Source: Cyanobium sp. T1B-Tous (lineage in GTDB: Bacteria; Cyanobacteriota; Cyanobacteriia; PCC-6307; Cyanobiaceae). From it: a stretch of DNA of 60,035 bases. The stretch lies in NCBI RefSeq assembly GCF_024345475.1, contig NZ_JAGQBE010000009.1, forward strand, positions 1 to 60,035. The letters run 5' to 3'. Every line of letters begins with the position of its first letter. Within the stretch, counting starts at the first letter, position 1. Both the position numbers and the translations under genes were made by a program. Shown piece after piece: positions 37,624 through 40,809 of the stretch. Below the pieces are notes generated by a model. It saw only the letters and a list, made by a program, of their open reading frames with translations, did no database searches and was not told the origin of the DNA.

Positions 37624-38055
37624 TCAGGCGTCGAAGGTGTTCTTGCCGGTGAACTTGAGGTTGGCCGGGTTGGGGTTGGCGCCGATCCGACGGGGGTTGT
37701 GGCCCACCATGGCGCGGCCTTCGTTCACCTTCTCGGGGAAGACGCCGTCTTTGGGGTGCAGGAACTCGGTGTCACCGCCGGGGAAGATCCGGTAGATCTT
37801 GTAGTCCTCGATCCGGGGCTTGAACTTGGTGCGCAGCTGGGTACCGAGCGCGAGGCACTGCTCCTTGCGGGCGAAGTACATCAGGTTTTCGCCCTCGTTC
37901 ATGTGGGCGGCGCCGCCGGTGGGCAGCTCAAACACCTGCTCCTTGGGGCTGGACCAGGTGATGGCGTATTTCTCCTCGGTCTCAGCGGAGTTCAGCAGGC
38001 CGCCGGTGCTGCCGATGTACTTCGGGAGTTGACCGCTGAGCGCCGTAGCTGCCAT
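37624..38055 (-). CDS. psaD: Photosystem I subunit II
   Basis: PsaD is the stromal-side subunit that docks ferredoxin on photosystem I. The 143-residue product starts [20 protein letters not shown] and contains [40 protein letters not shown] and [20 protein letters not shown], all typical. The start at 38055 matches the family; the frame is open 22 codons further up without similarity. It has its own terminator and lies 106 nt downstream of the histidine-kinase gene on the same strand. Confidence 0.97.
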
Positions 38056-38161
38056 GGCTTTGGATCGTTTCAGGCGGAAGCTAGCACCGTGTTTTTGCCC
38101 GAATCCCGCCTGGCGCCGCACTCTTCACACCCGTCAACAAACCACGCCTCCGGGCGCATCC

Positions 38162-39535
38162 TCAGCACAGCGGGAAGAACACCGTGAGGCCGCTGCCACT
38201 GCGTTCGGTGAGCCGGCCGCCCAGGCGATGGAACAGCCGCTGGGTGGCCTGTCGGCTCAGCTGCAGGCTGCCGGTGGCTGGGTTCCAGCTGAGCACCGGT
38301 CCCACCAGCTCCCGCTGTTCCCCTTCGTGCTCCCGGGCGGCGGTGGAGTCCTCGTTGCGCTGGCCTGCGCTGCTGAGCTGGAGTTTCAGCCTGGAGCCGG
38401 CGGGGGACAGGCTGAGGGTCACCGTGCTGCCGGAAGGCAGGGTGCGGCTGAACCGGTCGATCAGGCCGCCGAGCATTGTTTCCAGGCGGGCCGGATCGCT
38501 CAGCACCTGGGGCAGGCCCTCGTCGATCACCAGCTCCAGAGCCAGGTCGCGGCGGGCCAGTTGCCGTTGCCAGAGCTCGTGCTGTTGCTGCAGCACCGCG
38601 CTGAGGTCGGTGCGGGCCAGGGCGTGGCGCTCGAGGGGCTGTTCGCTCCCCGGTTCGCGCTGCAGCTCGGCGGCCAGGAAGATCAGGCCAAACCGATCGA
38701 TCTGCTCGCTGCACTCACCATCAATCTGCTCCAGGCGCTGGCGCACCACCTCGGGCAGATCGCTGCGCCGCAGCAGGGAGCGGATCAGGGTGCGGATCGT
38801 GGCCAGCGGGGTGCGCACTTCGTGGGTGAGGGCCTCCAGCAGGGCCAGCTCGCTGCTCACGGCCCGGGACGCGTCGCCCTGGAGGCGTTCACGGGTCGTG
38901 CCGCCGTGGACCAGGGGTTGCAGGGTCAGGCTGGGGGCCATGGCGGCCAGCCGTTCCCCCATCCGCGGCCAGAAGCGCATCCCCAGCTGGTCGTCGCTGC
39001 GCAGGGGGCCCAGCCGCTGGAGGGCGGTGCGCAGGGCGCCGGACGCGTCCGGGTTGCCCGCCAACAGACGGCCGTCGATCAGGCCCAAAGCCCCGGACAG
39101 GGCCTCCGGATCGAATCGCACGATCAGGCGCCGGGCCTCGGCCGGTCCATCGAGGCAGAGGGCCACCTGCAACTGGGGCGTGATCACCAGCAGCAGCGGA
39201 TCGGTGCCATCGCCTTCTTCGAGGGTCATCCGATGGAAGCTCCCTCCCGTACCGGTTGGGGCGCTCCCTGGGAGCAGGGCGGCGGAGCCGGGCAGCAGAT
39301 CCTGCAGTTCCCGTGGGGCCCACACCCAGCCCTGGAGCTGTTGGAGCAGTTCGGGTTCGTAGAGGGCGGGCAGGGGGGCTGCCAGCCACAGCCCCTGCAG
39401 TGGTTGCCGGGGCAGCAGAAAATCCTCCTGCAGGGTGGCCAGCGCCGCCCACCACTGGCGTCGCACGCTGTCCTCGTTGCCGACGCCGGCGGGGACGCCC
39501 TCGGCCAGGCAGCGGCGCAGGTCGGACAGGCTCAC
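38162..39535 (-). CDS. Soluble histidine-kinase-like protein with degraded ATP-binding domain
   Basis: The 457-residue product has a unique N-terminal region (about 1-220, no membrane helix or recognisable PAS/GAF), then an H-box ALTHEVRTPLATIRTLIRS with His238 followed by Glu, as in active HisKA kinases. The C-terminal region should be HATPase_c, but the N-box position reads LETMLGGLIDRFSRTL without the usual Asn, and I find no DxGxG or GxGLGL loop; it ends RSGSGLTVFFPLC. The GTG at 39535 overlaps the rodA stop (GTGA). It precedes psaD. Cognate regulator and signal unknown. Confidence 0.75.
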   Translation of the reverse strand: MSLSDLRRCLAEGVPAGVGNEDSVRRQWWAALATLQEDFLLPRQPLQGLWLAAPLPALYEPELLQQLQGWVWAPRELQDLLPGSAALLPGSAPTGTGGSFHRMTLEEGDGTDPLLLVITPQLQVALCLDGPAEARRLIVRFDPEALSGALGLIDGRLLAGNPDASGALRTALQRLGPLRSDDQLGMRFWPRMGERLAAMAPSLTLQPLVHGGTTRERLQGDASRAVSSELALLEALTHEVRTPLATIRTLIRSLLRRSDLPEVVRQRLEQIDGECSEQIDRFGLIFLAAELQREPGSEQPLERHALARTDLSAVLQQQHELWQRQLARRDLALELVIDEGLPQVLSDPARLETMLGGLIDRFSRTLPSGSTVTLSLSPAGSRLKLQLSSAGQRNEDSTAAREHEGEQRELVGPVLSWNPATGSLQLSRQATQRLFHRLGGRLTERSGSGLTVFFPLC

Positions 39536-40809
39536 CAGCGTCCTTGGGCCGAGCGACCCCGGCGGGCCACGGAGGCGCACAGCCCGAGGGCGATGAAGTT
39601 CACGAGCATGGCGGACCGTCCATAGCTGAGCCAGGGAAGGGGAATTCCGGTGATCGGCCCCAGGCCGATGGTCATGTTGATGTTCACCACCACCTGGAAC
39701 ATCAGCATCGCGCCGATCCCCACCACCACCAGGGCTTCGTAGTCGGTGCGGGCCCGTCCGGCGATCTGGAGCAGCCGCCACATCAGCAGGGCGAAGCCGG
39801 CCACCACCAGCACCGAGCCCAGAAATCCGGTCTCTTCCCCCAGGGCGCTGAAGATGAAATCGGTGTGCTGCTCTGGGATGAAGCGCAGTTTGGTGAGGGA
39901 TCCATTCATCAGGCCCGTTCCCCAGAGCTGGCCGGACCCGATGCCCACCGTGCTCTGCAGCAGGTGGTAGCCGCCGCCGAGTGGGTCCTGGGCGGGGTCG
40001 AGAAACAGGGTGAGTCGGGCCCGCTGGTGGGGGCGCAGGCCGTGTTCCCACAACAGGGGGGTGGCCACGGCGAACAGCCCCTGCACCGCCAGGCTGATGC
40101 TCAGAGCAACCCGTTTCCAGGGCAGGCTCTTCCAGGCCAGCCAGCCCATCAGGGGAATCCAGCCGAGGAGCAGCCAGGGAAGGGTGCCAGCCACGATGGC
40201 CGCCACCAGTGGAGAGAGCAGCAACACCACCCAGGCCCCGGGCATGCCGGCCCAGAACAGCATCACCAGAAGAACGGCCCCGAAGACCAGGGAGCTGCCC
40301 AGATCAGGCTGCACGAACACCAGAAGCCAGGGAAGGGCAATCAGGCCCACAGGACGCACCAGATCGACGGGGCGATCCACCGGGTGCCGCGCCAGCACTC
40401 CGGCCAGCAGCAAAATCGCTCCCACCTTGGCGAATTCCGAGGGCTGCACGTAGAAGCCGCCGATGTTGATCCAGCTCTGGGCCCCCAGGGCGCTGGTGCC
40501 CACGATCCGAACGGCGATCAGGCTCGCCACCATGGCGCCATAGATCGGCCATTTGAGCGGAATCAGCCGCTCCAGGGGCATCCTGGCCAGCAGCAGGGCC
40601 ACCACCATGCCCACCGCTGCGGTGATCCAGTGCTGATACCAGTCGGCGTAATCGGCCTGGCGCTGGGTGCTGGCGATCAGGATGCCGGCGATCGCCACCA
40701 TGGCCAGGGGGACCCCCCAGAGGATCAGGTCCACATCGGCCAGGGGGCTGCGCCGGCCGCTGCGGCCGCTGAAGAATCGGGAGTTGCGCCGCCCCAGCTG
40801 GCTCAGCAT
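39532..40809 (-). CDS. rodA: Peptidoglycan glycosyltransferase RodA (SEDS family)
   Basis: RodA polymerises lipid II during cell-wall elongation with a class B penicillin-binding protein. The 425-residue product has about ten hydrophobic segments, the SEDS-type WINIGGFYVQPSEFAKVGAI, VQPDLGSSLVFGAVLLVMLF, GSLTKLRFIPEQHTDFIFSA and LGPITGIPLPWLSYGRSAML, all conserved in RodA. The ATG at 40809 lies 5 nt after the mrp stop, and the stop overlaps the kinase GTG, so mrp-rodA-kinase look like one operon. Confidence 0.95.
   Translation of the reverse strand: MLSQLGRRNSRFFSGRSGRRSPLADVDLILWGVPLAMVAIAGILIASTQRQADYADWYQHWITAAVGMVVALLLARMPLERLIPLKWPIYGAMVASLIAVRIVGTSALGAQSWINIGGFYVQPSEFAKVGAILLLAGVLARHPVDRPVDLVRPVGLIALPWLLVFVQPDLGSSLVFGAVLLVMLFWAGMPGAWVVLLLSPLVAAIVAGTLPWLLLGWIPLMGWLAWKSLPWKRVALSISLAVQGLFAVATPLLWEHGLRPHQRARLTLFLDPAQDPLGGGYHLLQSTVGIGSGQLWGTGLMNGSLTKLRFIPEQHTDFIFSALGEETGFLGSVLVVAGFALLMWRLLQIAGRARTDYEALVVVGIGAMLMFQVVVNINMTIGLGPITGIPLPWLSYGRSAMLVNFIALGLCASVARRGRSAQGRW

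Follow-up and report, generated by a model that had tools for sequence, protein, structure and literature searches.

The window, i.e., the stretch of 60,035 nucleotides of Cyanobium sp. T1B-Tous analyzed here, contains a gene between rodA and psaD whose product carries a histidine kinase H-box and a C-terminal domain in which the usual ATP-binding motifs are missing. This raises the question whether the protein is a kinase at all and, if it is not, with which signaling system it works. The gene is located on the minus strand (39535-38162), has a GTG start codon at 39535-39533 and a stop codon at 38164-38162, and encodes 457 amino acids. The features of the locus are the following:

38162..39535, minus strand: gene for a degenerate histidine kinase of 457 amino acids with GTG start (homologs)
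38921..39535, minus strand: N-terminal presumed sensor domain, residues 1-205 (model; no confident fold match)
38651..38863, minus strand: DHp domain, residues about 225-295, with the strictest constraint in the protein (HisKA; dN/dS 0.00-0.13 in 11 comparisons)
38822..38824, minus strand: codon of the phosphoacceptor His238 (His in 184/184 readable rows)
38165..38623, minus strand: CA domain, residues 305-457, predicted Bergerat fold without ATP motifs (model and alignment)
38450..38470, minus strand: degenerate N-box GGLIDRF, Arg361 in place of the catalytic Asn (alignment)
38255..38275, minus strand: degenerate G2 box TGSLQLS replacing GxGLGL (alignment)
39532..40791, minus strand: rodA (FTSW_RODA_SPOVE by Pfam), own start approximate, GTGA overlap with the start of the kinase gene
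37624..38055, minus strand: psaD (Pfam)
38076..38140, minus strand: psaD promoter-like region, parts of which are conserved in Cyanobiaceae (TTGTTGACGGGTGTGAAG at 38140-38123, GTGCTAGCTTCC at 38087-38076)

The codon of His238 (38824-38822) lies within ALTHEVRTPLATIRT. A Pfam search with the window protein returned HisKA at residues 232-275 (E 2.6e-7), and no other domain, HATPase_c included, was listed up to an E-value of 10, at which the HMMER filters remove most of the very weak matches. The predicted full-length structure had a mean pLDDT of 73 and comprised three parts, i.e., an N-terminal domain with a confident fold, a helical DHp domain that is of low confidence near the H-box, and the CA domain. 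As the initial annotation had stated, no membrane helix was seen by eye, neither in the sequence nor in the model. In the predicted model, residues 304-457 matched Bergerat domains (VIA-align), and the best match was the CA domain of VanSC (Z 15.4, rmsd 3.0, 132 aligned). The DHp and CA domains together matched DivL (VIA-align, Z 14.7, rmsd 5.6, 221 aligned) and RetS (VIA-align, Z 14.7, rmsd 4.8, 181 aligned). When residues 1-209 were modeled alone, the pLDDT was 84 and the pTM 0.82. A Foldseek search with the N-terminal domain gave no confident match (best E 0.019), and its best VIA match, NucT with a phospholipase-D-like fold, had a Z of 6.7, which is below the trust level. The DICT domain (PF10069) was matched weakly in 8 of 66 homologs at E<=1 (best E 0.0039), and the score in homolog L213 was 15.7 bits versus a curated cut-off of 23.8.

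The conservation of the motifs was analyzed with 207 sequences, of which 185 were distinct over the last 235 residues (140 from Cyanobiaceae and 45 from others); a partial sequence (L111) and one with a broken C-terminus (L194) were left out of the counts. The H-box, which had been described as intact, was indeed very highly conserved: the acceptor His was present in all 184 readable rows, as was a Thr at position +4, and Glu at position +1 was found in 180 of the 184. The N-box Asn was kept in only 8/185 homologs and replaced by Arg in 160 of the 185, the Asp of G1 was kept in 1/185, and the two glycines of G2 in 1/185 and 0/185, respectively. A pattern scan still found a DxGxG- or GxGLG-like string in 4/185 homologs, and in an 80-row alignment most rows had a TG-x-[LV]-x-L stretch at the canonical place of GxGLGL. 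The missing motifs noted for the window protein are thus missing family-wide. HisKA was matched at E<=1 in all 66 family members scanned, and HATPase_c was matched weakly in 36 of these 66 at E<=1 (best 7.1e-8). Because the Bergerat fold was modeled and weak HATPase_c matches exist in other members, what is missing is not the CA domain but its ATP-binding residues. The initial annotation had named a confident HATPase_c model with a conserved Asn and a glycine loop as the outcome that would speak against it; the fold was indeed obtained, but the residues were not. Compared with canonical HisKA kinases, the DHp domain with its H-box and, in the model, the Bergerat fold are present, and N-box, G1, and G2 are absent.

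Among eleven canonical kinases that served as motif control, the Asn was present in ten (the exception is L006) and G1 and G2 in all eleven; six of these rows had been picked by motif pattern and, therefore, keep the motifs by construction. In a control that is independent of motifs, every other HisKA protein of the window genome and of nine small Cyanobiaceae genomes (1.6-1.9 Mb) had an adjoining HATPase_c match. These nine genomes encode 4 or 5 HisKA proteins each, and the protein studied here is the only one of them without a HATPase_c match, so one of the 4-5 HisKA proteins is probably not a kinase. In three genomes (G056, G010, and G078) another HisKA protein is Hik2-like by its H-box, and two of the others are, on the same basis, presumably NblS-like and SasA-like. 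For Prochlorococcus MED4 five sensor kinases have been counted (PMC2663038), and from the numbers in the nine small genomes it follows that these five may include the pseudokinase. In two sequences of genus g9 (L119 and L120) a Gly replaces the Glu after the acceptor His (HGIRTP), and a Gly at this position was seen in 3 of the 140 Cyanobiaceae rows.

The gene was found in 143 of 151 Cyanobiaceae genomes at E<=1e-40; in one of these (G050) it is truncated by the end of a contig. Three additional weak matches in this family are other kinases. A recent pseudogene or a sequencing artefact was ruled out by this distribution. In the eight Cyanobiaceae genomes without the gene, psaD was not found in six and was cut at a contig end in two (G108 and G111). 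Since all eight absences coincide with a missing or cut psaD, no true loss was seen in this family. In a sample of the class, 182 of 194 genomes had a match at E<=1e-20, and in a sample of the phylum 68 of 156 genomes had one, all from the class or from the family of the window. Among the genomes listed without a match in the phylum sample, 19 of 20 belong to other classes, and the remaining one is G165. Outside Cyanobiaceae the gene was not found in the seven genomes of genus g74 of family f16, one genome of f30, two of f33, and one of f19. In G219, which belongs to the same family f16 as g74 and comes in addition to the 182 genomes, a diverged copy was detected with a profile (E 2.2e-56); the pseudokinase retained there (L218/L262) has an altered H-box, HEVYTSLST.

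The dN/dS ratios against 11 relatives (Nei-Gojobori) were 0.00-0.13 for the DHp part, 0.11-0.37 for the sensor part, and 0.20-0.51 for the CA part. By this estimate all domains of the protein are under purifying selection, the strictest of which acts on DHp, and the values below 1 for the CA part indicate that the dead CA domain itself is therefore maintained. The loss of the ATP-binding residues is family-wide and old, and not a local decay. As predicted from its sequence, the protein is a class-wide, ancient histidine pseudokinase that is kept by most of the cyanobacteria sampled, and it very probably has no autokinase activity. This is in accordance with the initial proposal of a phosphotransfer or docking pseudokinase, the ATP residues being lost throughout the family and the His and the DHp domain being kept. 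A search of the literature, which covered titles and the starts of abstracts in a collection with few subscription papers, listed none on this pseudokinase family or on the three-gene row described below. Counts of cyanobacterial kinases are reportedly given by Mary and Vaulot 2003 and by Ashby and Houmard 2006. The suggestion that slr1414 (Hik11) is the locus name in Synechocystis received no support from the literature listing.

The gene neighborhood in the window was as initially described: rodA lies immediately upstream, its stop codon and the start codon of the pseudokinase gene overlap as GTGA, and psaD begins 106 bp past the pseudokinase stop codon. Of 162 Cyanobiaceae loci, among which some genomes are represented twice, 155 have this gene order; of the other seven, three have no upstream sequence, one has no downstream sequence, and three failed the distance rule for rodA. 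A 4-bp overlap with rodA was present in 59 Cyanobiaceae loci. Within the available flanks of loci from other families, rodA adjoined the gene in 1/46 and psaD in 0/46. Between the gene and psaD, TGCTA was found in 157 and GTGTGA in 142 of 161 Cyanobiaceae loci, and this conserved element suggests that psaD has a promoter of its own. The promoter-like element at 38076-38140 (TTGTTGACGGGTGTGAAG, GTGCTAGCTTCC) could be an RpaB-type site. Since the order is confined to Cyanobiaceae and psaD has its own upstream element, the operon was set aside as a functional clue, and the suggested link between cell-wall growth and photosystem I was not supported. In three loci of other families (L178, L181, and L188) a gene that by eye resembles histidine phosphatases and phosphoglycerate mutases lies directly downstream of the homolog. 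In five further loci (L174, L175, L189, L177, and L179) a gene for a canonical histidine kinase is convergent to the homolog, at a distance of 25-212 bp in three and of 749-1681 bp in two.

A different neighborhood was found in families f13, f4, and f29. In a protein tree rooted on canonical histidine kinases, f13 branched first, followed by f4 together with f29, then by f23, and then by the rest; the supports of the successive remainders were 96, 75, and 100, that of the Cyanobiaceae node was 33, and f4 and f29 were represented by one sequence each. In 14 of 15 genomes of these three families, the pseudokinase gene is directly upstream of, and on the same strand as, a gene for a short Hik2-like kinase (6/6 in f13, 1/1 in f29, and 7/8 in f4). 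A gene for a NarL-type, Rre1-like response regulator is the third in 13 of the 14 rows. In G252 the contig ends within the third gene; the available part matched at 55%, and a better match to the regulator exists elsewhere in the genome. In G243, the exception to the adjacency, kinase and regulator genes are together and the pseudokinase gene is on another contig. The regulator of f13 contains Response_reg and GerE (Pfam).

The kinases of this row have HATPase_c and intact motifs and, in their open frames, 8-127 residues before the His. In all ten scanned with Pfam, of the 14, HisKA and HATPase_c were found and no GAF at E<=0.1. Their H-box is HQ[LM]RNP in f13 and f29 and HE[LMV]RNP in f4. The published Hik2 primers, translated by hand, read DLLHQLRN, ADTGYGI, and NGTGLGLAIV (PMC4751278); the HQ of f13 and f29 agrees with this Hik2 H-box, and the HE of f4 differs from it. 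The names Hik2 and Rre1 are assigned here by motifs, domain content, and literature. With HisKA and HATPase_c, without GAF, and in early-diverging hosts, which presumably match the hosts of the "class II" Hik2, the predicted short kinase fits this class. GAF-less Hik2 proteins have been described for the early-diverging Gloeobacter violaceus and for Synechococcus JA-2-3B'a and JA-3-3Ab (PMC5904244). Among six Thermostichus strains, one two-component triad has been counted in five and two in the remaining one, and no Hik2 was reported there (PMC9953108); this triad may be the row of pseudokinase, Hik2-like kinase, and Rre1-like regulator.

In the later lineages a like kinase has a longer N-terminus. 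A GAF domain is part of class I Hik2 in print (PMC5904244). Two such kinases were tested: in L235 GAF was seen below the cut-off (E 0.08; GAF_2 0.053), and in that of the window genome (G000:C57) Pfam found no GAF; both have the longer N-terminus. The pseudokinase gene of the window's lineage is unlinked to Hik2 or Rre1. In the Hik2-like kinases of five Cyanobiaceae (L309, L292, L296, L300, and L304) the DxGxG of G1 is without its second glycine (DGGEP, DDGKK, DEGIP, DSGKP, and DAGDP), and the G2 box is present.

A relation to Hik2 was seen also in the DHp domain. Over positions +7 to +19 after the His, in DHp helix 1, the Hik2-like kinase was the nearest to the pseudokinase in five of five genomes, with BLOSUM62 scores of 20-29 versus 3-10 for the next best; this comparison covers 13 positions and those canonical kinases whose H-box was found by pattern, which numbered between 3 and 6 in each genome (in G000, 6 of 8). 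Against 36 distinct canonical helices, a background enriched in Hik2-like loci, 18 of the top 19 were Hik2-like, and the other one (L220) looked unrelated. The DHp profile of the family also ranked Hik2-like kinases high, in a sample that is rich in them, and the CA profile showed no preference for them. The profile-ranked set had been selected by a pattern with DxGxG, and for this reason the window genome's own Hik2-like kinase was not part of it. The pseudokinase itself does not belong to the Hik2 family: it has HE[VI]RTP in place of an HQLRN-type H-box and, in contrast to the HATPase_c-bearing Hik2-like kinases of the row, neither G1 nor G2.

The co-occurrence of gene and regulator across the class genomes gave mixed evidence. 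Most class genomes encode the regulator (188 of 194 at E<=1e-40), in line with the wide occurrence that has been published for Rre1 in cyanobacteria (PMC9321951). Of the eleven class genomes without the gene, three (G207, G237, and G246) are also without the regulator at E<=1e-40, and eight retain it, i.e., all seven of genus g74 of f16 and G210. The gene is present and the regulator missing at this threshold in G232, G241, and the window genome G000; 20 of 20 other sampled Cyanobiaceae have an Rre1 ortholog.

On balance, the protein can be described as a sensor domain, a DHp domain with its acceptor His, and an ATP-less Bergerat domain, and probably as an ancient partner of Hik2 and Rre1. The partnership itself we consider rather probable from gene order and helix similarity, and the phosphorylation of His238 in trans possible, with the balance somewhat against it. 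In the early-branching lineages the pseudokinase would be the sensor subunit of a sensor-less Hik2, with which it would pair via DHp. The live CA domain of Hik2 would phosphorylate His238 in trans, or the pseudokinase would gate this CA domain, and both proteins would use similar docking helices to act on Rre1. In the later lineages, in which Hik2 has a longer N-terminus (with GAF in print) and the genes have separated, the pseudokinase would have stayed in use, either to provide Hik2/Rre1 with a second input or to serve Rre1 as a phosphotransfer or phosphatase partner. Hik2 and its chloroplast relative CSK couple the redox state of plastoquinone to the expression of photosynthesis genes in cyanobacteria and plastids (PMC9321951, PMC6949291). 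It is tempting, but tentative, to speculate that the ancestral Hik2 was a two-subunit system of a dead, sensing DHp protein and a sensor-less Hik2, that Hik2 later gained GAF and became CSK, and that the original sensor subunit still feeds a second signal into Hik2/Rre1, by heterodimer formation or by trans-phosphorylation. Signal reception by class II Hik2 has been tentatively assigned to its own kinase domain (PMC5904244); the adjacent, conserved, sensor-bearing pseudokinase is a concrete alternative for its signal input.

The strict conservation of His and DHp would also fit a stand-alone histidine phosphotransferase, in which His238 takes over the phosphoryl group of a receiver domain and hands it on, with a purely structural role for the CA domain. 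Such proteins, ChpT and Spo0B, share with the pseudokinase a DHp domain that carries the acceptor His and a Bergerat-like domain that makes no use of ATP; ChpT has a DHp hairpin and an atypical Bergerat domain, and no ATP was observed in the latter (PMC3433190). However, the conserved N-terminal domain and the gene context differ, the family model of the ChpT type (PF10090) was matched in 1/66 members without significance (E 0.28), and the adjacent kinase of the three-gene row has no receiver domain. Relays of the ChpT/Spo0B type are not known to have such an N-terminal domain, and this explanation is considered unlikely. A role as phosphatase of a response regulator or as sensor of a phosphorylated one, i.e., a DivL-like or phosphatase-locked HisKA protein by which Rre1 or another regulator would be damped, also appears improbable. 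The HExxT after the His is conserved, with Glu in 180/184 and Thr in 184/184 rows, and the structural matches include DivL (Z 14.7, rmsd 5.6, 221 aligned), but HExxT is ordinary in HisKA kinases. DivL of Caulobacter, a pseudokinase known to read a regulator in its phosphorylated form, has the same order of sensor, DHp, and dead CA domain; its His is replaced by Tyr (PMC4211667), in contrast to the invariant His here (184/184), and the sensor domains differ.

An active kinase with an unusual mode of ATP binding is very unlikely: the kept Bergerat fold, the weak HATPase_c matches (36/66), and the N-box Asn in 8/185 homologs would speak for it, but the G1 Asp (1/185) and the G2 glycines (1/185 and 0/185) have practically vanished. 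Equally hard to believe is a dedicated regulator of cell envelope and photosystem I that is tied to rodA and psaD, as the conserved order (155/162 Cyanobiaceae loci) and the 4-bp rodA overlap in 59 of them are opposed by the counts in other families (rodA 1/46, psaD 0/46) and by the conserved element upstream of psaD. Two further known systems are close to the pseudokinase. Hik2/CSK with Rre1/Ycf29 is like the pseudokinase in DHp helix 1 and is its gene neighbor in early-branching cyanobacteria. RetS, which acts with GacS, matches the pseudokinase by sequence and structure, and no specific kinship is implied; the PDB entry 7n0e, titled as the kinase region of RetS with the DHp domain of GacS, illustrates that kinase-kinase pairs exist.
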